64,000 bases of DNA, taken from the NCBI GenBank assembly GCA_963971425.1, contig OZ020517.1, forward strand, positions 26,492,668 to 26,556,667, in the 5' to 3' direction. This stretch comes from Bryoerythrophyllum caledonicum (Eukaryota; Streptophyta; Bryopsida; Pottiales; Pottiaceae). This document shows positions 6,301 to 52,707 of the stretch, piece by piece (positions within the stretch are counted from its first letter, which is position 1; each line of letters begins with the position of its first letter). Both the position numbers and the translations under genes were made by a program. The notes beneath the pieces were generated by a model. That model was given only the letters and a program-made list of their open reading frames with translations, made no database searches and was not told the DNA's origin.

Positions 6301-7449
6301 GACTCGTGCTCCATCAGTCACACAAGCCCTTGGATGTTGAGGAATCCGTACTGGAAGTGACTCTCTCCGTCTCTCGTGGTGCAAGTGCCTCCGCAAACGA
6401 GGAAGATGCAGCAATCCACATCCGCATTCCGGCATGGACACCTGAGAAGGGTTGCCGTGCTTACCTGAATGGCAAAGAGGTTGACTCGGCTCCGGTTCCA
6501 GGTATGAAGCACTCTTGCATTGTGTGGACCAATGATTCTCTTGATGTGGTAGAGCTCATTCATGTTCTCTTTTGTTTGCTCAGGAAAATTCTTCAGCATC
6601 GTGCGAACATGGAGTCCTGACGATCAAGTAACGCTTTTGCTGCCCATGAGCCTCCGGTTGGAGAAAATTCAAGGTATAGCTAGTTCTTTGAGTGGCTTTT
6701 TTACGTGTTGGTTTCAAGTTTTTAAACTGGTTTGTTGGATTCATGGCGCAGATGATCGCGGTCGGTATGCGTCACTTCATGCGATCATGTACGGTCCGTT
6801 TGTGATGACGGGACTGAGCACGGGCGAGTGGGAGCTGGGGCATTTCGGAGAGCTCTCAGAGCGGATACGCCCCGTTCCAGCGGCTCACCGCAACCAGTTG
6901 TCGACGTTCTCCCAAGGTCCGCTTGTCATGGCCTGCGACAACGGCACGGCCGTCATGAGCTCCACTCCACTAGTGGATGGGACGAACCAGTGTGGACTTG
7001 CAACGTTCCGAGTGGCAGATCACCCCAAGACGACGAGTGCAGCGCAAGAAAGCAGGCGGCTCGTCTCCCTGGAGCTTTTCAGCCAACCGGGGCGTTTCCT
7101 GAAATACAACGGCAAAGATAGTCTCATCTCCGCTGGATCCCCAGGCGAAGACGCGGTGTTTGTTTTCCTCCCAGGTTTGACAGGGAAGAGCGGCACGGTG
7201 TCGTTCGAGGCTGCGAGTCAGGCTGGTTGCTTCCTGAGTTCGAGCTCCGACGCAACTGGTGGTATATTCCTACGGTGTAAGAACGATGACAGTGCCTTCA
7301 ATGCCATGAGCACATTCTCTATTCAATCGGGCGCCGCGGCATACCATCCCCTCAGCTTCGTTGCCGAAGGCGAGTATCGGAGCTTCCTCCTTGCCCCGCT
7401 GAATTCCTTGCGAGATGAAACCTATACCATTTACTTCGACATACAGTGA
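3387..7449 (+). CDS. GH127 (DUF1680) beta-L-arabinofuranosidase-like protein, 12 exons
   Basis: Exons: 3387-3836, 3908-4088, 4292-4494, 4674-4871, 5033-5104, 5185-5280, 5398-5477, 5596-5671, 5814-6024, 6187-6501, 6584-6673, 6752-7449. All junctions are GT-AG, phases agree, and the joined frame gives 889 residues, close to plant homologues (about 860). The N-terminus has a hydrophobic segment around residues 25-40 (FLLCFVMCFVVG), a likely signal peptide or anchor, implying a secretory or wall location. Met8 or Met15 are alternative starts. Conserved blocks follow: PYGGWESPVSELRGHF, YLSASALMWAST, AGLLDQYML, SHSYATGGTSVSEFW. The ETC motif (E443, C445) and WCCYG (C518, C519) match the Glu plus three Cys that bind zinc in GH127 enzymes, one Cys being the nucleophile. 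The C-terminal part (about 720-889) is beta-rich and AbfB-like. The family removes L-arabinofuranose from glycans; the exact substrate is inferred. It looks intact. Confidence 0.93.
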
Positions 7450-9774: not shown

Positions 9775-10181
9775 TATTTATTATAATCAGCCCTAAATAA
9801 CTCTTAATTTGTATATTTAACTCAGAGTGGAAATACACGGTGAAGATTTGTGGACAAGATGATCTTCCCATCCTCCTTTTCACTTCTAAAATTACTTCTA
9901 ACTTGGGTTTAGAGACTAACCAGCTCTTCCACTGACTTAATAAGGATGCATTCTTCAAGATGGCATGGTGATTGCTCTTACCATCTCCTTATTACTACTT
10001 GAAAGACGATGACATTACATTATCCTGAAAAGAAATTCCGATGGTCAAGTCGAATATTACAAAAAATTGTTCAATTTGGTACCATCCAAGAACGGTTGGT
10101 AATATTTTGTGTCATATGGTGAGAAATCTAAATGATTTGTTTGGCATGGATATTTCTTGGCAGAAGTTTACCAACAAAACT
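9775..10181. other. Insertion site of the methyltransferase retrotransposon
   Basis: No recognisable gene. The sequence up to about 10181 appears to resume after 17042, so this is the pre-insertion locus, possibly an older degraded repeat. Confidence 0.35.
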
Positions 10182-10647
10182 GTCGTGTAAAGAAAGATTG
10201 ATAACCACAACAGATCGAGAGTCCTAACCAACATCGAATAAACAAAAAATATACACTAAAACAAGTATACATAATACACCCTTAAGAGTGAACAAGTATA
10301 AAATCACTCACGTAGTCAAGCGTCTCAAACTCCACAAAGGGAGAATCAACCAGTGCAAGTAGTATAGGAGAACGCGGAGCCTTCACTAATGATATATAAT
10401 CACTTACAAGCAAAGATAATCACTAACACTCTCTAACTCACATCACAAAGCTTGACTTCATAAAGACGTCAAGTCAAGCACGTGTGCGGCGCTATACGCA
10501 CACACATACAATCCTATGTGGATGAAAATCATCCACGGATGAATGCGGTGCGCCGCCGTTCGTCCCTAAACACACATAGATTAATAACAAACTAATTTAC
10601 GCTTAAAACTACGATACAAAGAAGCCCTTGACGCCATGTCCCATGGC
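10182..10647 (-). repeat. 3' LTR of the methyltransferase element, with an extra 100-bp segment
   Basis: The part at 10305-10647 matches the 5' LTR at 16696-17042. The outer 100 bp (10182-10281, tgtcgtgtaaagaaag...) are absent from the 5' LTR but recur just inside at 10651-10750 (tgtcgtgtaaagaaat...). The 3' end therefore reads segment S, LTR core, segment S'. Either the full LTR is about 465 bp and the 5' copy was truncated together with gag, or two LTRs were partly fused. Confidence 0.6.
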
Positions 10648-10650
10648 AGC

Positions 10651-10750
10651 TGTCGTGTAAAGAAATATCAATAACCACAACAGATCAAGAGTCCTAACCA
10701 ACATCAAATAAACGAAAAACATACACTATAACAAGTATAGACATAAGACC
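10651..10750 (-). repeat. Second copy of the LTR-edge segment
   Basis: This segment is about 88-90% identical to 10182-10281 (shared: ataaccacaacagatc, gagtcctaaccaacatc). It lies directly inside the 3' LTR, where a polypurine tract would be expected. Confidence 0.6.
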
Positions 10751-11070
10751 CTCAAGTGCCCCCTTAGCAGATAAATAGACCCTCTATCCAGCTAGGACCA
10801 TACAACACTAACAAGACTAAACGCCACGGTGATGTCGCTGCAACAACTTTACGCATCCAGTCGAAGATGTCGCCCGTCGCCAAATCAATAAGCATATGGA
10901 GAAATAACAAAGAGAGGGTAGGCCGGGTGCAATGTGAGCCCCATCTTTAATCGACTTAGCCAACTTTTTTGCCAATCCCGTGGTCACTCTCCACATTGCC
11001 TATCCCTGAATCGAAACGAGGAAATCCAACTGGATGGCAACGCACCAACAGTGACAAGTCCACGAGAAAT

Positions 11071-11520
11071 TCAAGCCGTTTCATCCAGTGAAACGTGGCT
11101 TGAACACCTCCGACAACGAAGGCAAGTCCAATCTTCGGACGGTAGAGTAGAAAGAAGCGGCGTCAGATAAGCCATATGCCAACCACGCTTGCAATGGTCA
11201 CAAAGCAACATGGTAGTCGCGCCCTTCTTCTCACCACACACAATACACGGAAGGCCGTCGAGCACAACCGCCAACTTCGGATGAACGGAGCTATCAATGG
11301 ATAAATGACATGAAGCGCAATTCTTAGAGTACTTCCGACACTCCCGGCCATCCTTGCTTTCGAGCAACAAGATGCCACTAGGCAACACATCCTTCACCCA
11401 AAGAATGGTATGCCCAGCCTTGGCGTCCACCGTCGTGGGCACCTCACGCTACAAATAAACGTAATCCCCCGTGGAAAAACGTCGCAGTTGAGGTCGGTAG
11501 GCACCGCTATAAATACGCGT
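11071..11520 (-). pseudogene. Post-integrase region with PHD finger
   Basis: The frame runs in-phase upstream of its first Met through a TAG to about 11520, with RRFSTGDYVYL, a tail seen after integrase in gypsy elements. It then reads DVLPSGILLLESKDGREC and YSKNCASCHL. The PHD finger is CIVC, then LLCDHCKRGWHM, then CLRC, a C4HC3 spacing. The Cys two residues after the zinc-binding His is Tyr here (HMAY instead of HMAC), a one-base change that should damage the finger. PHD fingers bind histone H3 tails, so the intact version could steer integration or the methyltransferase to particular chromatin (inference). Confidence 0.75.
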
Positions 11521-11611
11521 ACCGTAAGGTGTCACCGCGTTCAGCGATGGACAAGTTCTCCATGGCTATGAACATAGCCCGCTTGAAGAACTACGCTCAA
11601 TCCCGTAGAAA

Positions 11612-12355
11612 CTAAGCCCACACCTCTAGATCGTCCAAATCCTTAACCGGAGCCAACTTTTCCCGAACGGAACTGGGTAAAATTGGCTCCCGTCCGTACA
11701 ACAATTGATACGGACTGAAAAGAGCCAGTGAAGCCTGCCGACTAAACCGGTACCCCATGGCAATCCATGGTATCATCAGATCCCAATCACGGCAGCCACC
11801 CTGAAGTAATCCATACTTCCATCGGCCCCGCTTCACGATCTGAACTACACGCTCCGCTAAACCGTCTGCTTCTGGGTGATCCCGAAAAGTGGTACGATGG
11901 TCAATGAAAGTCTTTGTATACAAAGCTTCGAAAGCCCCATGGAACTCACGTCCCTGGTTAGTGAAAACCTCAGCTGGAGCTCCAAAAAGAGCCAACAGCC
12001 GGCCAAAGAATGCCATGGCCGCCAACTCTGAAGAGTTTTGCGGAAGAGCCACGAGCTCAATCCACTTGCTCAAATGTTCCACCATCACCAAGACATACTT
12101 GGCTCCGCGTGGAGTGACAACAAGTGGATCAGGAAAGTCCAAAGACCACTAGTATCCAAGCCCCATAATGTGCAAAGGCTGCAATTGCGGTGATAAGGTG
12201 TTGAAGCATGATCTAACTCGATCACATACTTCACACCGAGAAACATACGTGGCGACCTGCTGATACATGCCGGTCCACCAGTACCGGCTGCGCAACATCA
12301 AATGAGTCCGTCGCACACCAAAATCTCCTAGGTCTTCGTGTACTTGCCATACCAA
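11612..12355 (-). pseudogene. Integrase of the methyltransferase element
   Basis: The zinc-binding N-terminal part is at 12355-12149 (H...H, then CEVCDRV). The catalytic core is at 12142-11612: MDFPDPL (first Asp), KYVLVMVEHLSKW, then TNQGREF where the family has TDQGREF, then HPEADGLAERVV (Glu) and SPYQLLYGREP. The middle catalytic Asp is Asn here, so this copy should not integrate. A stop and frame change separate the two parts. Confidence 0.85.
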
Positions 12356-12539
12356 GCCCTCTCAGCTGGCCTTGGAACTATGCGTCTAGTCTCATCTAGC
12401 CACATCCGAAATAAAAGTTCGTTTTTCTAACGGAACCGTGCTATTCGGTGCCCAACTCTATCACGCTCCATAGCAGAAAGAGCTCGGGGAAGTGTCCCAT
12501 GTTGACATATTGTAGCTTGTGCAAGACTAGACCTTCTTC

Positions 12540-13007
12540 TCACACATTGCTAACAACTTGGGCCCTATCCGGTTCCTCATATGTTGCCAAATCACGCAAC
12601 GTCGATACGGAGCCAGACATCAACGTGAGGTAAGCTGTTACATGCCACCCCGGGACTGACTCCCTGTCACAATCCCCATGCCACCTGGCACCAATTAAAT
12701 CCTCCTCCGAAGGACTTGGATTGCGAGATAAACCATCCACATCTAAATTCGTGATGTCGGCGCGATGTACAACCTCAAAGTCATACTCCTGAAGCAACAA
12801 AGCCCACCTGGCCAGCTTGTCAGACTCCATGAACCACTTCAAAGGCTGATGGTCGGTCATCGATATAAAACGTTGCCCATACAAATAGGGCCAAAAATGG
12901 GCTATGGCCCAAACCGCAGCCAAAGCCTCCTCGTCATAGAATGAATAGTTGGACTGTGCGTTGTTGTTGCTCCTGGAAGCAAACGCCACAATGTACTTCC
13001 GTCCCAA
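12540..13007 (-). pseudogene. RNase H region and connection of the methyltransferase element
   Basis: The frame contains YIVAFASRS, YSFYDEEALAAVWAIAHFWPYL, MTDHQPLKWFM and NLDVDGLSRNP, the standard Ty3/gypsy RNase H series that normally follows RT. It is separated from the RT frame by two in-frame stops around 13008-13019. Confidence 0.85.
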
Positions 13008-13016
13008 ATCATATAT

Positions 13017-14197
13017 CTAAGTCAATTCAGCCTCCATTCCCACAACACTCAAGTCTGTGTGCAACTGAAAGGGTCGTGTAGCATCCGGACGCCGCAGCAC
13101 AGGCGCTGAACCGAGCTTTAGCTTCAAAGTAGCAAACGCCTGTTGCTGCTTCCATCCCCAAGTCCATAGTTGATCCTTTCTCGTGAGAATAGTCAGTGGC
13201 TTAGCAATCAAGCTAGAGTTCTTGACAAATTGGCGATAGTAATTTCCCAAGCCAAGAAAAGCTCGGAGCCGTGACACGTTGGTTAGGGCAAGAATCTTCT
13301 GCAACGTACCCACCTTGGCTTGTTGTATGCCAAGACCCCCTAGAACAACCATATGTTCCAAATATCGCAACCTTTCGTGGAAGAACTTGCACCTGCCATG
13401 GTGCAAGCGCAATCCCCAGTGACGTAACCTCTTAAACACCGCTTGAAGATGCCTTACATGTACTTGTGGGTTGCTACTAAAAATGAAAACATCATCAACG
13501 TAGCATCGCGCAAATGGTGAACCGGTCAACATCCGGTCCATCCCCTTTGAAACTCAGCGTGTGCGTTCTTGAGGCCAAATGGGAGAAACTTCCAATGATA
13601 AAATTGATCTCTCTCATCCTAATCAACTCCTCAAAATGCAGTCTTCATCCGGTCATCCACCATCAATGGTAACTGGTGGTAACTAGACCGCGAATCTAGA
13701 GTACTAAATACTCTAGCATGACCCACCGCATCAAACAACTCCTCCGGCGTGGGTATGGGATACCGGTATGACTTGGTCTTGTGATTGACCGGCCTATAAT
13801 CCCCATACATCCGCTTCTCCGTCCAGTTGCCAAAAAGATCCTTCTTCGATGGCATAACTCTGGCACAAACGTACTCGCCGTTGGAGAGCTCAATCAAGCT
13901 GCCGGCTAATAACTCCTGACAATGAGTCTGAACCCCAACTTTCTCTGATAGATTGAGCTTGTACGGTCGTTGGAAGATTAGGTGGTCGTCCTGTAACTGA
14001 ATGTGAATCGGTTTGCCTCTGTAGCCCTCCAAATCACGGAGACTAAAGGCAAAACAACTACAATACGAACGTATAAACGCTTGTATCCTTTGTGCCTTGG
14101 CACCGATAAGATGTGGCCCCAAATCCAAAGGCCAATCATCAAACTCCGTGGTCTCCTTCTCCATTGTAGAAGACTCACCGTGTACCGGCACGGCCAA
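13017..14197 (-). pseudogene. Reverse transcriptase of the methyltransferase element
   Basis: The frame at 14197-13631 has YRGKPIHIQLQ, YGDYRPVNHKT and FSTLDSRSSYHQLP. The next at 13541-13017 has CYVDDVFIFS (the YxDD active site, intact), FLGLGNYYRQFV and LHTDLSVVG, the start of RNase H. Between them are in-frame stops at about 13635 and 13620 and a frame change in a GGGG run near 13545. Domain order and motifs are Ty3/gypsy. Confidence 0.88.
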
Positions 14198-14295
14198 TGA
14201 TTGCTACTTTGTAGCAGAAAGGGCATTAATCCCGGGCATCCGCTCAATCAAAGTCCTCGGCTAAGGGTACAAAGACACGCTGAGCACGAAGCTCC

Positions 14296-15505
14296 TCAGA
14301 TGCATGCCTCTTCAAACAAAAAAAACAATTCCACTTCCTCGATCTCTGTGAGATATAGCACCGCTGCCTTCTGACCGTCAGAGTCTGCCCCTTGTATGCG
14401 TGGATGGTCACTCAAACAGCGTTGAACAGCAAAACAGAGGTCACATACCCAAACGAGGGTGTGGAAGTCAATGGCTTGACCCAACAAATAATGACGCTGG
14501 CCCTCAGAGAGATCTGGTGCGGCGATGGTGCCTGTCAAAAAGCCCATTGCCCGCTCCCTCTCATGAGCAGAAGGCTCCTCATAAGTTTGAGAAGATGAAT
14601 CCCAAACCATGCCCGGACCGCGTGTCATGAAGGCAAAAGACCGCGGGTAGCACATCAACATGGGAAACGCCCTCCAAGTGAAACCAACGCGGTTGACCAC
14701 GGCCAATGGTGGCTCATCATCCTTGGTAACCTCCGTGGAAGCACGGTGGTCGTTCAAGATGTCATCTACCTCACGGCGCACGGGCTGTTGCACTTGAGCA
14801 AGTGCAGAGGTGAGCAATGTCGATGATGCCATGTTGGTCCAAATCCAACGTGGTCGATGGACGTAAGAGCCCAACGCCGCAGCATCAACAAACGTAGGGG
14901 GGACCAAGAAGGTGATGGATGTATGCCCCATCCTCACGCACTTTCGTCCGTGTATCTCCCAATGAGGGTACATTCTCAAAAATGTACCCCGGTGGCGTCG
15001 ATTGGTGGGTAATACACCACTGGATGAGCCTGAGCAAAGCTGCAAAGAGATCCGAGCGTGGATCATCCAAGCCACGTCCACTGCCTGCCCGTGAATGGCC
15101 TTGGCAAGGCCATCCGGAAATCACCAAGTCCACGTGACCTAACCGGCGAAGATCATCCTCACTGATCAACGTCACATCATGTGGCAACTTGCCAAAACAC
15201 CCTCGAATCGCAGAAGGTGGTAACTGCTGTGGATACAATGCCAGAAGACGCTGAATGTGATGGTGAGCGGCACGGTTGGCTGCAAAGCCACTAGCCACGT
15301 GGATATATCGTCGTACCTTAAGCCCGGCCTCTAACACAGCCGTGAGCCCCGTACCGATACCGGCAAATAGCTCCACAAGGGTAATACCCTCATCTGGTGG
15401 TCGCCACTGAATATTGCGAGTCAACAACGTAGTAGAAGAATCCACTGAAAGTTGTGGAGCATCAATAACATCCACAATCTCCCGACTACAGCGTGTGAGC
15501 TCCAA
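14296..15505 (-). pseudogene. Cytosine-5 DNA methyltransferase domain inside the retrotransposon
   Basis: The first frame (15505-14885, 206 codons) has motif I VELFAGIGTG (residues 44-53), motif IV SGWPCQGHSRAG with the catalytic Cys in PCQ (133-135), and motif VI FENVPS with the catalytic Glu (177-179). The second frame (down to 14296) carries PPTFVDAAALGSYVHRPRW, PRSFAFMTRGPG, RERAMGFLTG (motif IX-like) and YLLGQAIDFH (motif X-like). The frame changes in a run of six C near 14897-14902; five C would join them. The catalytic residues are therefore intact but the copy is frameshifted. The enzyme would transfer a methyl group from SAM to C5 of cytosine in DNA. It lies between protease and RT, so it was probably part of the polyprotein. 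The PCQ form differs from the PCN of DNMT3-type enzymes. Confidence 0.88.
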
Positions 15506-15774
15506 CTGAGTTCTCTATGGAGGAAGGGGATCCTTACAATGACGAGCAGGGATCTCCACTTATTTGTGCTCACGTGGTTCCACTACCCCCGACATTAATG
15601 CATGTCTCTTTGAAAAGCGTAGAATCACATGGCAAATTGGATGCCAAAGCATTGCATCGAAACATTGCATCAGTCGTGGAAGTCACCGCGCTAGTTGCAA
15701 AGACAATCGGAATGAGCTCCTTTCTGCCATCACCGGCAGACCACCCAGGCCTTATCCAAGCGTCCTCCGTCCAG

Positions 15775-16362
15775 TTATCCACCCCGAAATCGAGGGGGTA
15801 AAGCGCCTGCTAACCCACCAAAATGTCGTAGTTGGTGGTGCCAGTCACAATATACTGGAAACACCTGAGAGAACAAATGACCAGATGTCACGCCAAACAT
15901 CAACTGCAACGGATGTTGGATGTAGCCCATGGCCTTCTCCATGCCTTCAACCGATGTAACAATCGTAAATGGGCAAGGCTCAAGGTTCGAAGCACCTAGA
16001 CCCAAATCATGGGCTAGTTGCTTGCTAATCATTACTGGCTGAGCTCCGGAGTCCAACATAACACATAGGGGGGTAGCTCGGGTGGGATTGTCGTCCGTAC
16101 AACCAACCACGATGACTCTATCATCGTTTACCAAGAGTACCACCCCTGAACGCACAATGCGTCGCTTCCGTACCGACCGGGCTGCAACGTCAGACAAATA
16201 AGCCACTTCAGATATCAAGGACTGATCCCCAGAGGACTGCTCCATAAGTGTGGAAGTGGCATTGGCCTCAAACGCAGAAATAGCCTCCGCCGCCAACTTG
16301 GCCCGCATTGCTACCAAATCCTCCTCAGTGGATGGAGCCGTCACTGCCTGCAATACCTCCAC
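15775..16362 (-). pseudogene. Retroviral-type aspartic protease region
   Basis: The active-site motif LCVMLDSGAQPVMISKQLA (DSG) lies mid-frame, followed by FTIVTSVEGMEKAMGY and LQLMFG. The N-terminal 70 residues are Ala/Ser/Glu-rich and may be the gag-protease linker. No CCHC knuckle or capsid region is found upstream; gag seems deleted. Confidence 0.8.
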
Positions 16363-16695
16363 GATGGCATGGGAACCTTGCCCTCCAACACACTACCCCG
16401 TGAGTGAAAACGTGTGGATGAAGACGTATTGTGCAGCGGATGAACCAAGTGGATGAAAAATCGGGGCTTGCCTCCAGAGATGATGTACTCACAGAACACC
16501 TCCCTTACAGAACATGAATATGAGCTCCCTCTCTTACCTTCACAACTTCAAATACCACCAAGACAAAATACTAACACAAAATATAATTTGTAACCCATTC
16601 TTCCTCCATTCTTTCCATTTTCTATAAACTCGCCAAATACAAAAATGGTAGAAATTGAAGTAGAAATGGAGGTCTTTGTCAAGTGAAAGAGATGC

Positions 16696-17042
16696 AAATC
16701 ACACGTAGTCAAACGTCTCGCATTCCACAAAGGGAGAATCAACGAGTGCGAGCGGAGCTAGAGAATGTGTAGCCTTTACTAATGACTAACCATCATTTAC
16801 AAGCAAGCACTCACTAATCACTCTCTAAACACACTCACAAAGTTTGACTTGATAAAGACGTCAAGTCAAGGACGTGTGCAGCGCTATACGCACACGCATA
16901 CAACCCTACGTGGATGAATATTATCCACGGATGAATGCGGTGCGCCACCGTTCGTCCCTAAACACACGCAGATTAGTAACAAACTAATTTACGCTTAAAA
17001 CCTACGATACGGAGAGGCCCTTGACGCCACGTCCTGTGACAA
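16696..17042 (-). repeat. 5' LTR of the methyltransferase element
   Basis: This repeat is about 90% identical to 10305-10647 (shared: ttccacaaagggagaatcaa, gacgtcaagtcaag, tgaatgcggtgcgcc). It ends TGTGACA followed by AAAC. No primer-binding site follows on the element strand, which fits a deletion that removed the LTR edge, the PBS and gag. Confidence 0.7.
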
Positions 17043-17215
17043 AACTCCAAGGCATATGGGTGAAACAAGGATGGAAGAAGCCAACATTTCCTTGTGAGAA
17101 GGGAATGGTTATTAAAAGGCGTGGAGATGTGAAGAGCAACCAGCTTTCCATGCTAAAGGTGAGAAAATGACGTGCAATTGAGCCAATGAATAATAAGTAG
17201 AATCTTAACCCTTAA

Positions 17216-42900: not shown

Positions 42901-43598
42901 CATATCTATTCATCATTTTTTTAGAACCACTACTAAGATGGATGCAAAGGGGAACTAACGGCTACACCTTTGGAACATCACAAGTCACCATAAACTTGGC
43001 CCCGTACGCCGATGACCTTGCTGCTATTGCCGATAAACTTAAATCAATATAAATCCAACTAAATAAAATAGACAAATTCTGCGATTCGTCCAGTATGGAC
43101 GTCGGCATCCAAAAATGTGCCTCCACGGAATTTCCAAACAAATCCAAAATGAACCTGACCGCATTCAAAGCACTCATGCAAACCGCCAACATAAACTACT
43201 GCAACCAACCCATCCCCATACTACATCAAAATGAATCTTACGTATATCTAGGCACAAATCTTGTCCCCTCTAAAATGGAAGATACAAATCCACACCATTA
43301 AACCACAAAACTGACTAAACAATGTAACAAACTCACAACATGCCCAGTCACTATGAAACAAAAAATAAAAATGGTAGAGACAATACTTAGACCCGGAGTA
43401 CATAGCATATAGTTTCTATGCAGTCCCATACTCTATGCCTGCTATAAAAAAACTAGACAAAAAAATCATAGCCATACACAAATCCATTTGTGGCTTCTCC
43501 AAATGCATATCAAATATCATAACCCAACTCCCAAAAAAATTATTTGGTTTAGAAGCTTTTTCCTTTAAAAATGCTTACCTTCGATGTGTAAAGGAACA
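39987..43598 (+). pseudogene. LINE ORF2: APE endonuclease and reverse transcriptase
   Basis: Endonuclease blocks: TPGCGGLLTLVHKS (about 40838), YLLCGNFNRDVALI (about 41070; the usual GDFN is GNFN here) and SLIDGFYIFN (about 41262). RT blocks: NNKSPGPDQIPNSILK (42303), NHKPIALVNTIYKLF, NQKGFCAERSTARQL, QGDTLSPYLFIIFLEPLL and YADDLAAIA (about 43007, active site intact). Frames change repeatedly (40186, 40991, 42245, 42475, 42735). The protein is very rich in Asn, Pro and Thr, with strong A/C bias in the sense strand, unlike the host genes. Confidence 0.8.
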
Positions 43599-43904
43599 TG
43601 TTATGACTACGTCGTACATCTGGACTAGTTGACAAGTAACTCTACAAAAGGGAATTCATGGGAAACCATTACAAATCCAATACGGTTATGGTAGTTGTAA
43701 ACTAAGTCTTCTTTTGTCTCTCTTAAAGCTTAGTGGGAGGAGCTTTGTCTCTCACCTTGCATATTATTAATATAGTGGAATGTTATAGTCTTAAGCTTCT
43801 TTGGTTTGCGGTATGATTCGTGGTTGTATTATTTGTAGAGTCATGATAGGGTGATTATAGTAGAGTGTCGACAGGAATTCGATTAGATTTAACCAGTTCT
43901 AACA
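43599..43904 (+). repeat. 5' LTR of the chromovirus
   Basis: It starts TGTTATGACTACG and ends CCAGTTCTAACA; 306 bp, the same length as the 3' copy. Confidence 0.92.
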
Positions 43905-44421
43905 TTATGCAAGGTCTGAGAATGTCTACGCTCCTTGGATTAAGAATGTACAATTATGGAATCCTGGCTACATGTTGAGTTCAATCATGACTCTATAATT
44001 CACGAGCCCCAATTCAGAGTGGAGGATGGGTGTTTGGTAGGTTCTGCATAAATAAAATAAAATATAAACTGACACGATGGGATATGATTCCGCCGATTCC
44101 AGGTTCTGTATAAATTAAAACCGACATGATGGAGTATGATCCGACCTTCTGGCGCCTACACCGAGATTCCAAAGTTCAACAGGATTAAAACCGGTTCAAA
44201 ATTCGAGCAGAAGGCTCGCAACGTCCGGCCAGTCTGTGAGAAAACCGGGTCGCGTTTCGAAAAACCGGATCATGGCTGGTGGCTCCTATATTCTCCCCGA
44301 ACGAAGATGAGGACTGTGATCTTGAATTGCGCCTCTATGGCACCGCGGCACCGCAAAATCCGCACCATGGACGAGGGAACCGCATAGTACCAGATATTCT
44401 TAGTGGCGAGTGAATGATATT

Positions 44422-45460
44422 ATGGACCAAGCGGGGGCGGTCAACGAGGCACGTATACAAATGCTCGAAGGGGCGGAACCAGAGGTTGCAACGTACATTC
44501 AGCAACAAGTACAATCAATTCTTTAAGCCGCACTACCGCATCTTCTTCAGCAAGTTTCAGAAAATTTGGCTGCATCTTTATTATTGGCATCCCCACTAGC
44601 GGCTGTGAAGACTTTCGAGCAAGGCTGTGAGCGAATTGAAGAATCCGACTATAAAGTGGCAGCACCCGAGAAGTTTGCCAGAAAGAAAAGAGGAGAGGTG
44701 TACAAATGGTTCGCTCAACTTCGGTTGGTATTCCGAGGCAGGCCACGTGCTTATCGATCAGATGAGGACAAAATCACCTACGCATTGTCGTATCTCACAG
44801 GGGCGGCTCAGAATTGGGCAATGCCCATATTACAGGGGCTAGACGAGGGACGTCGTCATGAGCTGTTGGCAAGCTACGAAGTATTCCGAGAGGCTATGAT
44901 TGCAGTATATGGCGATATTGATCGCCGAAGCACTGCCGAAGATAGATTGGGAAAGCTTCGTCAGACATGATCAATGGCAAGTTATATTTCAATGTTTAAC
45001 GAGCATGCTGCACAAGTGGATTGGAATGAGTCGAGTTTAATCGCAGGTTTTTGTGGCGGACTCAAGGACAAAGTTCTTGACTCAATTGCAACGGCAGAAG
45101 CACAACCACGGAGGCTTCATGAGTGGATGGCGATGTCTTCCCGGATTGATGAACGGTTGTGGTCACGACGTCCAAATTCCTCCAACTTAACTCCAAGAAA
45201 TCAAACTAGCCGTTCTCAAGCTAGCTCCAGGAGCTCTGGGCCTGTTCCGATGGAGTTAGATTCAATCGGTGGAACAACTGCTTTCGCAAAGACGGCTGCT
45301 GAAAGATTAGAATTTCAACAACAAGGAAGATGTTAGAGATGTGGTTAGTTAGGCCATGTTCGCGCAAGATGTCCGGTCAACCCCTCCAAACCACTATCTC
45401 TGGCAGTAATGGGAGGGGGCGACGAGAAGTTTGAAGAATTGGAAAAAGGACGATTCCGGG
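44422..45460 (+). pseudogene. Chromovirus gag
   Basis: The start MDQAGAVNEARI is at 44422. The same frame continues through TAA (about 44524), TGA (44968-44970) and TAG (45334-45336). The capsid core has VYKWFAQLRLVFRG, YALSYLTGAAQNWA and EAMIAVYGD. A CCHC knuckle reads C-x2-C-x3-GHVRARC with two ligand-spacing codons changed to TAG. Gag packages the RNA. Confidence 0.85.
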
Positions 45461-45461
45461 G

Positions 45462-48400
45462 TTGAAGTCATCGTTTCAGTACCCAGGCTCTTCTCAGACT
45501 CCGATTGCAACTGGTTTGCGTTCTGAACAAAAGAGATCCGCCATGCAAGTATCGATCAAGCATTTGAGCTCCTTGTCTCCATTATATCTGCGAGTTGTCA
45601 TGGATCCAGATGTTCATTTTACACTAACGGCAACGATTAATTCAATACCAGCGGTCACACTTGTTGACTCCGGAGCGACGGGGGTATTCATGCACCCATT
45701 GTTTGCTAAAAAATGCCAAGCAGAAATCAGGTCCAAAGTTGTTCCACAAGAAGTTCGGGTCATTGATGGTCGAATCATCAACTCAGGATTGATCACTCAT
45801 GAGGCCGTGGTGGAACTACAGGTGGGAAGTCTTTGAGAGGTTTTAACAGCAGACATCACCAACACAGGACGCTATCCCTGTGTTTTAGGGACTCCGTGGT
45901 TAGTACGTGCATGAGGAACAAAGAAAACAAAGGGTTTGGTGGAACTACGACCCGATGTCGCTCCCTGGTTTCCAATACAATCAGGCCATGATCAAATGGA
46001 GGCAAAAACTCATCATAATAGAAGGAATGAAGACTCAAGGAAATTATACAGGGTGACGACACCAAGGCATGCGATTGTGTCTGCAGCAGCGTTTAGACAG
46101 TCAGCTAAAAGGGTTGAATTATACACCTTAGAGGTGTCGGAATTATTTGGAACAAAAAAAATGGAAGGATTGACTGAAGGAGTAATCCCGATGGAATATC
46201 AAGACCTACAAGGGGCTTTCAGTGAGGAGGCATCCAACGAATTACCGGATCATGGAACATCAGATATGAAGATAGAATTCAAGGAAGGACAAGAGCCACG
46301 AAACACCGGCTTACGACCCATGTCTTCAGTAGAACTACAGGAACTTTGTAAATATTTGGAGGAGAACCTCGGAAAGGGATGGATTAGAAGATCCAAATCT
46401 TTGGTCTCAGTCCCAGTTGTGTTTGCTAAGACAAAAGAGGGAATGATTCTGGTATGTGTGGATTACCAAAATCTCAAACGTGTTATAATAAAGAATCAAT
46501 ATCCGCTATCGCTGATTCCCGAGCTCATTGATCGGTTATTGGGAGCTAAAGTTTTTACCAAGTTGGACATAAGACATGCATACCATCGCGTGAGGATGGC
46601 AACGAGTCATGAATATAAGACAGCATTTAAAACACGATATGGATTATTTGAGTATTTTGTGATGCCATTTGGCTTAACAAATGCCCCAGCTCAGTTCCAA
46701 GCACATATGCTGTTTATTTTCAATGACCTATTGGATATATCAGTGGTGATCTATCTCGACAATATACTTATTTTTTCAAAAAATTTAGAAGAACACCAAG
46801 TAGTGGTAAGAGAAGTTCTACGACGGCTACAATGATATGGACTTTATGCTAAAGCATCAAAGTGTCACTTCCACCGTAGCTCCGTGAAATTTCTAGGGAT
46901 GATTGTCTTAGGAGAAGGACTACAGATGTGCCCAGATAAGATCCAGGCAATTCAAGAATGGCCAAGTCCAAAAACAATAAAGGAGGTCCAAACACTCTTA
47001 GGCTTTGCAAACTTTTACCGCCGCTTTATTTGGGATTATTCAAAAATTGCGGTACCCCTCACGATCCTCACTAGGAAAAAACCAACAATTTTAGTGGGAT
47101 ACCGTGGCCCAACAAGCATTTGAGGAACTACGATCGCGGTTCATACAAGCACCGGTATTATTACATCCCAATTTTGACCATCCTTTTATTGTTGAAACGG
47201 ACGCATCCGACACTGCAACGGGAGGCATCCACTCTCAACATGGAGAAGATGGGCATTTGCATCCTTGCGCTTATTGTAGCTCTAAGATATCACTAGCAGA
47301 ACAAAATTATGACATCAACGATAAAAAGTTACTAAGTATTGTCTTAGCGTTTCAAGATTGGTGAGTCTACCTTGAAGGGTCACCTCATCAAGTACGAGTA
47401 ATTTTTGACCATAAGAATCTCGAGCAATTTCTTACCACCAAACAACTTAATCGACGACAAGCTCGATGGTCGGAGCGGCTATCAGCATTCGATTTTGTTA
47501 TTCAGCACAGGCCAAGATCATTAAATGGACGAGCGGATATGTTATCAAGACGCATAGATATTGAAAACAAATTTGACCATGATTCAAGACCTTTACTACG
47601 ATTCGCAATGTTGGAAACATGTCAACCGGTTTGGAATGACGCCAAAATTATTAACATGATCAAATTATCAACCATTAAGGATAAAAATCTAGAGCCAATA
47701 TTGGCATTTTTTACAAATAACCCTGATCAGGCACCAATAAACATCCGACGACGATTTCAAGACTACAATTTTCAAAATGGAGTACTCTATTTCCAGGATA
47801 AGATGGTGGTACCCGAAAATAATGAGTTAAGACTCCAGATACTAAGATCAAGACATGATGCCCCGCTTGCTGGACATTTAGGACGTGCAAAGACTTTAGA
47901 CCTCGTAGCGAGAACATTTTATTAGCCCTCCTTGCATCGATATGTTCACAAATACGTAGACAGTTGTGATTTATGCCAACGTTCAAAGTCGACACGCCAT
48001 AGTCGATATGGACTATTACAACCAATTCCAGCAGCACAAGCTCCGTGGAAACGGATAACAACAGATTTCATTGTAAAATTGCCAAAGAGTGCACGGTTTG
48101 ATGCTATAATGGTGGTAGTTGATAAGAACACTAAATTGGCTCATTTTATCCCAACAAATGAAACAATTGATTTGAAAAGGATGGCTATGTTATATCTTCA
48201 TGATATCTGGAAGCACCATGGAACACCAGAAGAAGTAATCTCTGACCGAGGGCCGATATTTGTATCAAAATTTTTACGACGTTTATATGACCTCCTCCGT
48301 ATTCACCCCCTTCATACAACAGCGTTCCATCCACAATCGGATGGACAAACGGAGCGGGTCAATCAAATTTTAGAGCAAATTCTCCGAATGCTTACCACCA

Positions 48401-49134
48401 GGCGCCAAGATGATTGGTCCGACCTCCTTCCCCTAGCTGAATTTGCTTATAATAATTCTCTTCATTTTGCTACAGACTTCTCACCATTTTATGCCACGTA
48501 TGGCTATCATCCAACTCTATCTTTTATAACACCTACGACTTCCACGGTCCCAGCAGCCGAAGAACGGATTTGTCAATTACAAGCGGTGCATGAAGAAATA
48601 AAGACTATGATTAAGATTGCAAGAGATCAAGCAAAATGAAATTATGATCAATATGTTCAACAACAACTGCATTTCAAACTTGGAGACAAAGTACTTCTTT
48701 GACACAAACACATTGCGACAACGGCACCTTCTAAAAAATTGGGACCCAAATTCTTAGGACCATTCCTTATCATAGCTAAAATATCAGATTTGGTACATCG
48801 TCTCAAGTTTCCCAAGACACTTTGCATCCATGACGTGTTCCACGTTTTGTGCTTAGAGCCATACCGCCAAGACACAATCCCAGGCCGCAAATAACAACCA
48901 CCACCACCACCTATCGTATCACCAAATGGAAATATCGAATGGGAAGTACATAGCATATTGGACTCTCGAATAATTGGCCAAGGAAAAAAACTTCAATATT
49001 TGGTTGCATGGCAAGGCTATGGACCGGATCAAAGCTCGTGGGAGCCTGCAGGAAATTTACAAAACGCCCTAGACGCCGTCAAGAAATTTCACCGTCGACA
49101 TCCTACAACCCCAAGACCAAGGACTAGGACCTAA
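45462..49134 (+). pseudogene. Chromovirus pol: protease, RT, RNase H, integrase, chromodomain
   Basis: Protease: TLVDSGATGVFMHPLFAKKC (45660). RT: KLDIRHAYHRVRM, FEYFVMPFGLTNAPA and IYLDNILIFSK (about 46750), where the YLDD active site is YLDN. RNase H: ETDASDTATGGI, then a TGA. The frame moves by one near 47095. Integrase: HLGRAKTLDLVARTFY, CDLCQRS, ITTDFIV, VISDRGPIF and HPQSDGQTERVN (all three acidic residues present). The chromodomain at about 48937-49060 (QYLVAWQGY, SSWEP) would bind methylated histone tails and direct integration to heterochromatin. TGA codons at 45834, 45912, 46833, 47362, 48637 and 48700 each stand where Arg (CGA) fits. Confidence 0.92.
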
Positions 49135-49143
49135 AAGAGGGGG
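49133..49143 (+). promoter_or_regulatory. Polypurine tract of the chromovirus
   Basis: AAAAGAGGGGG lies three bases before the 3' LTR, the expected plus-strand primer. Confidence 0.75.
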
Positions 49144-49146
49144 TAA

Positions 49147-49452
49147 TGTTACGACTACGTCGTACATCTGGACTAGTTGACAAGTAACTCTACAAAAGGG
49201 AATTCATGGGAAACCGTTACAAATCCAATACGGTTATGGTAGTTGTAAACTAAGTCTTCTTTTGTCTCTCTTAAAGCTTAGTGGGAGGAGCTTTGTCTCT
49301 CACCTTGCATACTATTAATATAGTGGAATGTTATAGTCTTAAGCTTCTTTGGTTTGCGGTATGATTCGTGGTTGTATTATTTGTAGAGTCATGATAGGGT
49401 GATTACAGTAGAGTGTCGACAAGAATTCGATTAGGTTTAACCAGTTCTAAGA
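49147..49452 (+). repeat. 3' LTR of the chromovirus
   Basis: It starts TGTTACGACTACG and ends CCAGTTCTAAGA; the terminal CA has become GA. It is followed by GAACA. Confidence 0.92.
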
Positions 49453-52097: not shown

Positions 52098-52707
52098 GTG
52101 CGCGATCAGTGTATGTTCGTGGAAGGTTGTCTCGGGAGGAGGGTCGGGCCACGAACCATAGTGTATATGAAGACCGCAGAGGCATTGAAGTTGGATCGTA
52201 GCCGAAGGAGGAGCTCCTGGATCGCAGTTCGAGCTCGGGGTGGCGACGGCGTTGTGTTCTTGGTAAGACATTGCCTGAAGTTACTGTTTTGCATTTCTCA
52301 TGCTTTTTTTCCTTCATCTGGTCTAAAGCACGTGGATCGACGTAGCAAGTACATAGGTAGGGGATGTGTGGAAAGTGCTTGCAAGTACTGGGTCTCATTT
52401 TGAATCTTAAATGTGCGATCGGTGTCTGTGCGTGGAAGTTTGTCTCCGGAGGAGGGTCGGGCAACGAACCACAGTGTATGTGAAGACCGCAGAGGCGTTG
52501 GAGTTGGATCGCAGCTAAAGGAAGAGCTCTTGGATCGCAGTTTGCGCTTGGGCTGGCGACGGCGTTATGTACTTGGTAAGACATCGCATGAAGTTACTGT
52601 TTTGCATTTCTCATGCTTTTTTTTCTTATTCTGGCTTGATACACGTGGATTGCCGTAGCACGTACGTAGATAGGGGACGTGTGGGGAGTGCTTGCAAGTT
52701 CTCGATG
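52098..52707. repeat. Tandem duplication of a 300-bp segment
   Basis: Segments 52098-52396 and 52413-52707 are about 85% identical (shared: gaggagggtcgggc, gaagaccgcagaggc, gttactgttttgcatttctc). Each contains TTG followed by GTAAGACAT, a good splice donor at the same place, so this may be a duplicated 5' exon of the downstream locus. On the minus strand both copies are also open in the same frame (start MSYQ, then HNAVA). Confidence 0.65.

Follow-up and report, generated by a model that had tools for sequence, protein, structure and literature searches.

DNMT3-type methyltransferase and PHD finger in Ty3-like retrotransposons of Bryoerythrophyllum caledonicum

The closest described system is KnitGypsy-Dnmt3 of the alga Klebsormidium nitens, an element with Gypsy domains and a Dnmt3-type enzyme under purifying selection (de Mendoza et al. 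2018, PMC5890265; statements on this and the other cited reports refer to the accessible parts of their texts). According to a figure legend of that report, the K. nitens repeats resemble those of DIRS and the domains are those of Gypsy. In Symbiodinium, SymbioDIRS-Dnmt3 and SymbioLINE-Dnmt, which the same report regards as acquired independently (PMC5890265), likewise provide a retroelement-encoded cytosine methyltransferase but work with DIRS or LINE machinery. DNMT3 is also mentioned from streptophytes and dinoflagellates, in DIRS elements and in LTR elements of the Copia type (PMC12344493), and methylase-encoding transposons have been said not to be present in land plants such as tracheophytes (PMC6338049). 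Here we describe an element at positions 10181-17041 (minus strand) of a 64,000-nucleotide stretch of Bryoerythrophyllum caledonicum (assembly GCA_963971425.1, contig OZ020517.1, positions 26,492,668 to 26,556,667; hereafter the window). We consider it rather probable that this is a Ty3-like (Gypsy) retrotransposon of the KnitGypsy-Dnmt3 kind, expressed through a leaky UAG and bearing circle-type ends, which may methylate its own cDNA and be steered by its PHD finger.

Compared by description, the element shares with KnitGypsy-Dnmt3 its Gypsy domains, Dnmt3-type enzyme, DIRS-like repeats and purifying selection; it differs in that the enzyme is placed in the Pol open reading frame (ORF) in K. 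nitens (PMC5890265) and in ORF1, before a UAG, here. The kind, DIRS-like repeats included, is already known from one alga (Klebsormidium). New, as far as the literature searched reaches, are the expression scheme, the PHD finger, the target duplications, the permuted ends and the breadth of the lineage. The words PHD and protease are absent from the accessible main text of PMC5890265, and neither a readthrough UAG nor 4-bp duplications are described in those main-text parts, figures and supplements aside; no report of a PHD finger and a methyltransferase in one retrotransposon was among the papers listed by literature searches outside subscription journals and supplements. What had been the case of a single species becomes a lineage of wide occurrence whose scheme of expression and integration can be read, and the open question of why a parasite would carry its host's silencing enzyme is made testable.

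We called domains with a Pfam scan of the separate stop-to-stop ORF pieces of the window. Along the minus strand, these gave protease, DNA_methylase, reverse transcriptase (RT), RNase H, integrase core and PHD, spread over eight separate pieces (Table 1). This bears out the layout, C-terminal PHD finger included, proposed in an earlier reading of the letters alone (the sequence-only reading), whose location and strand also stood; both of its ends, 10182 and 17042, were one base off. DNA_methylase, RT (6.9e-10), RNase H and PHD scored above the Pfam cut-offs in this copy, and the aspartic protease and rve integrase below them; rve reached 9.2e-14 in the well-preserved copy L045 (L numbers denote fetched genomic stretches or copies, P numbers related proteins). 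The methyltransferase contains FAGIG, PCQ and ENV, as that reading had noted together with a motif X-like end, and these we take to be motifs I, IV and VI, followed by VIII-X. Aligned to L045, the window copy lacks about 3 kb including gag. It is dead and decayed, its gag lost and its frames interrupted, and is flanked on both sides by GTTT.

The genome searched was the 437-Mb assembly. Protein searches with the window methyltransferase, RT and PHD pieces returned 1678, 3885 and 1821 first-look candidates, respectively, which are not copy counts; the element kind is abundant in the genome. When the best 150 matches were scored for each piece, 101 of the 150 RT matches were preceded, within 0-6 kb and in the same orientation, by a scored methyltransferase match, 90 of them at a distance of 1850-2150 bases. 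The remaining 49 are mostly undecided because only the best 150 methyltransferase matches were scored; among five of them inspected, L026-L029 hold methyltransferase sequence and L049 does not. Scoring 123 of the 1054 candidates for the Pfam methyltransferase profile brought out a second family, A, beside the window's family, B. Identity between the window pieces and family A was ~32-36% for the protease (46% over a short stretch of L039), 38-53% for the methyltransferase, 45-55% for RT, 63-64% for the integrase and 44-46% for the PHD finger. We then compared 17 fetched 9.9-kb stretches, those of family A picked by methyltransferase and those of family B (L045-L049) by RT. Protease, methyltransferase, RT, RNase H, integrase and PHD followed in order in 14 (L033-L041, L044-L048); of the other three, L049 is without methyltransferase, L043 has no match after it, and L042 holds a lone DNA_methylase ORF.

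Selection was gauged by pooled pairwise dN/dS (ratio of nonsynonymous to synonymous substitution rates), with codons containing stops skipped and some rows representing the same place; decayed copies are under-represented because copies were picked by score, and above 70% identity the rows for RT, RNase H and integrase mix both families. In family A (gag 0.133, protease 0.130, methyltransferase 0.132, RT 0.125, RNase H 0.128, integrase 0.163, PHD 0.097), the enzyme and the PHD finger are by this measure conserved to the same degree as the domains of replication. In family B (gag 0.168, protease 0.278, methyltransferase 0.247, RT 0.157, RNase H 0.239, integrase 0.160, PHD 0.282), their conservation by the same measure is close to that of protease and RNase H and falls short of that of RT and integrase. 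Several family-A copies contain an extra upstream ORF of 216-237 aa (L033:884-1552, L035:908-1555) in a frame that differs from that of ORF1 and without a Pfam match (checked in L033). Over ten copies its dN/dS was 0.17 in its own frame vs 1.07 and 1.63 in the other frames, indicating purifying selection. The stretch ahead of the first ORF1 ATG in family A is also partly constrained (dN/dS 0.36), which may reflect a frameshift.

These results leave scarcely any room for the methyltransferase as a chance nested passenger of single copies, the outcome that the sequence-only reading had tied to copies lacking the enzyme between protease and RT. L049 is such a copy; it lacks bases 3197-4696 of L045, apparently by deletion; its identity to L045 is 85.7% before the gap and 96.4% after it, so it may also be a recombinant. 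Set against this one exception, the enzyme occupies the same position in two diverged families, in Marchantia, Sphagnum and further relatives, and we rejected chance insertion on the shared layout of the two families, the RT-methyltransferase linkage and the purifying selection. The methyltransferase and the PHD finger, for which the sequence-only reading had proposed a genome-wide search, are both family-wide and under such selection.

The best-preserved copies have ORF1 (gag, protease, methyltransferase; 1353-1371 aa, 1353 in L045) and ORF2 (RT, RNase H, integrase, PHD; 1041-1047 aa, 1047 in L045) in a single frame, with one TAG as their sole separator. Counting all fetched stretches where this point was located, TAG was followed by CAACCA or CAATCA, which fits CARYYA, in 36 of 37 rows (30 of 31 distinct places, two families); L040, the exception, has a sense codon. 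In tobamoviruses, UAG-CARYYA is the type-I leaky stop context (PMC3542737); in this retrotransposon it separates Gag-protease-methyltransferase from RT. Leaky stops are typically read through at roughly 0.3 to 5% (PMC3542737). For a Verticillium Copia element whose gag stop is leaky, CARYYA was reported to be lacking (PMC3441728). ORF1 stops at the same point in P0001-P0006 (84-89% identity in the methyltransferase region). Weighing against a leaky stop as a common property, P0022, P0026 and the Marchantia protein P0024 run from enzyme to RT without a stop; readthrough is therefore not general in the lineage. These three proteins and L040 are also what would suit a mere decay stop, or two ORFs translated separately, an explanation we regard as very improbable given that the same stop and downstream motif recur in two families ~50% identical in neighbouring domains, and that the ORFs stand in one frame, parted by the stop alone.

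The enzyme and the PHD finger lie on opposite sides of a conserved UAG in a leaky-type context, from which we infer that synthesis of the methyltransferase goes along with that of Gag, and that the PHD finger occurs in the rarer readthrough product only. The sequence-only reading had placed a DNA-methylation writer and a histone-tail reader in one polyprotein. In the well-preserved copies here the two could meet by readthrough only; its pairing does hold among relatives, with methyltransferase and PHD matches in one protein in 48 of 167 rows of our domain table (163 proteins plus four ORFs of L045 and L033).

We then turned to the ends. In both families, the 5' end is an A repeat (A1) without B (6/6 visible 5' ends; L046 and L037, with no A1 found in 2 kb upstream, were left out). 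Of 23 visible 3' ends, 17 read B1-GC-A2-B2 and the other six have B1 only. The joint (CACGACAGCTGTCA) is exactly CGACA-GC-TGTCA in 15 of the 17. Element termini are TG..CA, and B1 is preceded by a purine-rich tract. The last base of A is the same whether the internal motif ACTTGA-AAAGA-C or B2 follows; at the A2-B2 joint, 16 of 17 copies carry no more than one extra base. Target duplications of 4 bp are exact in three of the five copies with both ends (window GTTT, L047 ATGC, L035 CCTC). A1 and A2 are 99-100% identical over at least 280-365 bases in L033, L035, L045 and L047 (86% in the window), which suggests that some copies are young. No TGG-starting tRNA primer site was seen by eye directly after A1 (tRNA genes were not searched); conserved in its place is ACTTGA-AAAGA-C. 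Copies with B1-only 3' ends and no A2-B2 were L038, L040, L044, L049, L010 and L014.

The order protease-RT-RNase H-integrase, with H2C2 and rve, is that of ordinary Ty3/Gypsy elements, but identical long terminal repeats (LTRs) at both ends are missing (5' A only; 3' B-A-B or B). An ordinary LTR element with a damaged 5' LTR was rejected: the split ends are common to two families, and the other Ty3-like element of the window has two ordinary repeats. Split direct repeats are shared with the tyrosine-recombinase retrotransposons PAT, Toc and Ngaro, whose A1-B1-A2-B2 arrangement comes with no integrase and no target duplication (PMC4157794), whereas rve and H2C2 of a DDE integrase and 4-bp duplications are present here. 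The domain scan listed no tyrosine recombinase family for the ORFs of L045 and L033.

The form A1...B1-GC-A2-B2, with TG..CA termini and 4-bp duplications, is expected if integrase cuts the inner palindrome of a two-LTR circle. In our proposal, the reverse-transcribed repeat would be B-A, bounded by the purine tract and the motif after A1, and two such repeats would be joined end to end in a circle. Integrase would open it within the inner palindrome ACGACA-GC-TGTC, cutting both strands after CA, so that the recessed CA ends carry a 5' overhang of two bases; insertion of these ends with a 4-bp duplication would yield the integrated form. A likeness for a circle opened in this way is found in IS3-type transposon circles. 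Circles, long and generally taken for dead ends in retroviral integration, may on the evidence of the permuted ends be the substrate here. Several observations count on the other side: the circle is deduced from integrated ends and none was seen; the six B1-only ends may be one-LTR-circle products or come from later recombination; L045 and L049 (2/5 copies) mismatch at one base of the 4-bp flank; and the A2-B2 joint of the window copy has ~3 extra bases. Without any two-LTR circle, the split repeats could also arise in the course of reverse transcription, or through integration of linear DNA whose ends are completed on B1-A2 as template, as proposed for Ngaro/PAT elements. Though the repeat order is the same as in PAT and Ngaro, we find this route unlikely in view of the CA/TG ends with their duplications, the DDE integrase in place of a listed tyrosine recombinase, and the A2-B2 joint lying so precisely at two presumed priming-site borders.

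To place the enzyme, a profile of 25 related proteins was compared with solved methyltransferases. DNMT3A came first (1.3e-23), followed by DNMT3B (3.3e-19), DRM (4.5e-10), M.HaeIII (2.3e-8) and M.HhaI (1.5e-7). No DNMT1 was among the best 60 of 356 solved-structure matches, and the best solved match overall was Ty3 Gag-Pol. By this comparison with solved enzymes, the enzyme is DNMT3-type. An AlphaFold2 model of the L045 methyltransferase region had a mean pLDDT of 83 (267 of 448 residues at 90 or above). The lone ORF at L042:4302-5411 (C14:16012000-16021900), outside retrotransposons, is a full-length 370-aa DNA_methylase (PF00145 2.4e-64, NCBIfam dcm) in a neighbourhood of many long ORFs, a host gene or bacterial contamination.

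We next looked for a trace of methylation. Relative to L045, the window copy has T for C at 127/749 CG, 87/564 CHG and 186/2011 CHH sites (C transversions, 136 among 3324 sites); the reverse direction gave about half these rates (CG 48/613, CHG 32/452, CHH 91/2001). A similar CG and CHG excess was found in the decayed family-B copies L013 and L026, and a weaker one or none in younger copies. The excess suggests that the decayed family-B copies were methylated, by an agent that it does not identify. Two features tell against the element's own enzyme as the source: C-to-T excess falls on CG and CHG alike, as host plant methylation would also give, and L033, L038 and L040 compared with L035 (family A, subgroup-like differences) show no one-sided CG excess, CG being higher in reverse. 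As read from these substitutions, the trace is compatible with ordinary methylation of the plant type and does not mark the element's own enzyme as its source.

Under the preferred reading, a minority of ribosomes would read through the UAG, so that the enzyme, made at Gag level, would fill the particle while the PHD finger would be carried on the scarce integrase. From this predicted stoichiometry (enzyme with Gag, PHD with integrase) we argue for cDNA as the substrate: the particle enzyme may methylate new double-stranded cDNA before insertion, giving protection from host recognition or early quieting. Self-methylation and targeting by the PHD finger, both proposed in the sequence-only reading, are what we infer from domain content and layout. 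The enzyme might instead act in trans on host chromatin or RNA, for example by blunting host silencing or rival elements. Gag-level synthesis would yield plenty of enzyme for this, and SymbioLINE-Dnmt was reported unable to methylate DNA in yeast, with an RNA role discussed; we nevertheless think such action improbable, since a place inside the particle polyprotein in both domain orders (below) suits a cDNA substrate and the Symbiodinium DIRS-encoded DNMT was reported to methylate CG.

The best solved relatives of the PHD finger are CHD4, PHF12, Cph2, KDM5B/A and PHF21A, then others such as UHRF1; several of these read unmodified H3 tails. All eight zinc ligands (Cys4-His-Cys3) are invariant in 47 aligned rows. 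Chromoviruses are Ty3-like elements with a chromodomain after the integrase. Here a module of chromatin-reader type stands in the same place, with PHD instead of the chromodomain, and the domain scan listed no chromodomain for the ORFs of L045 and L033. From this position the PHD finger might steer integration to a histone-H3 state, perhaps unmodified H3K4. Relatives read H3K4me0 through acidic residues, and these contacts are not evident in the PHD alignment, which detracts from such steering and would suit a structural zinc module for integrase or protein contacts. The identity of the best solved relatives and the full set of conserved ligands make a purely structural role, in our judgement, the less plausible one.

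Both domains recur well beyond this genome. Integrase-PHD relatives (best 120 of 468) include Haematococcus, Volvox reticuliferus, Marchantia and a protein labelled Chrzof1, presumably Chromochloris. In the 167-row domain table, PHD matched in 125 of 132 rows with an integrase match, a figure biased by the PHD-bearing query. Methyltransferase relatives (43 proteins) include Marchantia polymorpha (42-50%), Sphagnum fallax (36%) and Closterium (30-44%). Bryophyte genomes therefore have methylase-encoding transposons, in contrast to the statement on land plants in the accessible part of PMC6338049. Together with the K. nitens report, these relatives support the tie to streptophyte elements made by the sequence-only reading, which stands in part: the streptophyte ties and a family-wide DNMT3-type enzyme and PHD finger under selection hold, the single polyprotein does not. 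In IMG/VR, 31 pattern matches for relatives were found and none was confirmed.

The relatives show two domain orders, with the enzyme before RT or between RNase H and integrase (rows starting inside the enzyme were assigned to the second order if no RT lay between enzyme and integrase). Trees were built from the 39 rows in which enzyme and integrase are both near-complete; 65 rows have the enzyme and 121 have integrase. Both part the two orders by one branch (support 96/87 for the enzyme, 95/98 for the integrase) and several subgroups agree; inner branches are open in 14 of 36 and 10 of 36 cases, respectively, and branches are long for P0043, P0172 and P0226 in the enzyme tree and for P0043, P0036 and P0032 in the integrase tree. 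Most simply, the trees point to long co-descent of enzyme and integrase after one capture and one move, two captures also being possible. As a tentative synthesis, possible rather than probable, we suggest a DDE-integrase retrotransposon that integrates, permuted, from a circle opened at its inner palindrome; its Gag-level DNMT3 would methylate that circle in the particle, its integrase-borne PHD finger would choose the chromatin, and the enzyme would have accompanied the integrase lineage since before the domain-order split.

Table 1. Features of the window copy (window coordinates)
Feature	Position	Strand	Evidence or remark
Whole element copy, decayed, gag deleted	10181..17041	-	terminal repeats, flanking GTTT; 85% DNA identity to L045
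Target-site duplication, 5' copy, GTTT read on minus strand	17042..17045	-	flank comparison
Target-site duplication, 3' copy, GTTT	10177..10180	-	flank comparison
A1, 5' terminal repeat, no B after it	16685..17041	-	89% to A2 of L045
ACTTGACAAAGACC, candidate primer-binding site directly after A1	16671..16684	-	ACTTGAGAAAGATC at equivalent place in family A (L053, L054); putative role
Joint of the ~3-kb deletion (gag included), where leader meets protease region	16395..16397	-	alignment to L045
Aspartic protease piece	15775..16392	-	PF13650 1.4e-4, below cut-off; 80-82% to family-B copies
DNMT3-type methyltransferase, N-terminal piece (motifs I, IV, VI)	14885..15514	-	PF00145 5.4e-13; DNMT3A best among solved methyltransferases for family profile
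Methyltransferase C-terminal piece, different frame (motifs VIII-X)	14296..15120	-	72-84% to family-B copies
UAG between ORF1 and ORF2, then CAATCA	14204..14206	-	read from sequence
Reverse transcriptase pieces	13017..14203	-	PF00078, PF17919
RNase H piece	12540..13016	-	PF17917 1.5e-22
Integrase core piece	11612..12148	-	PF00665 5.8e-6, below cut-off
PHD finger, within ORF piece 11071-11448	11113..11247	-	PF00628 6.2e-8
Purine-rich tract AAGGGGGCA adjoining B1	10757..10765	-	candidate plus-strand primer, putative role
B1 repeat	10651..10756	-	90% to B of L045
A2 repeat	10290..10648	-	GC of B1-GC-A2 joint at 10649-10650; ~3 extra bases 10287-10289 before B2
B2 repeat, 3' terminus	10181..10286	-	95% to B of L045

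The second Ty3-like element of the window (43598-49445, plus strand) has ordinary 300-nt terminal repeats that are 98% identical; its RT-integrase part alone matches the L045/L033 proteins (24-36%), with no methyltransferase or PHD match. Elsewhere in the window, a 298-aa ORF at 6553-7449 has an AbfB (arabinofuranosidase B) domain match (4.1e-6), and 52102-52699 is a tandem repeat with a 313-base unit in 1.9 copies. The assembly contains two different plastid rbcL types. By rbcL the host is a streptophyte: the type on contigs C590 and C894 is 96% like a protein labelled SM000511S17828, presumably Spirogloea, and 95% like that of the moss Fissidens, in a database clustered at 90% that may hide a closer name. 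The other type lies on contig C821.

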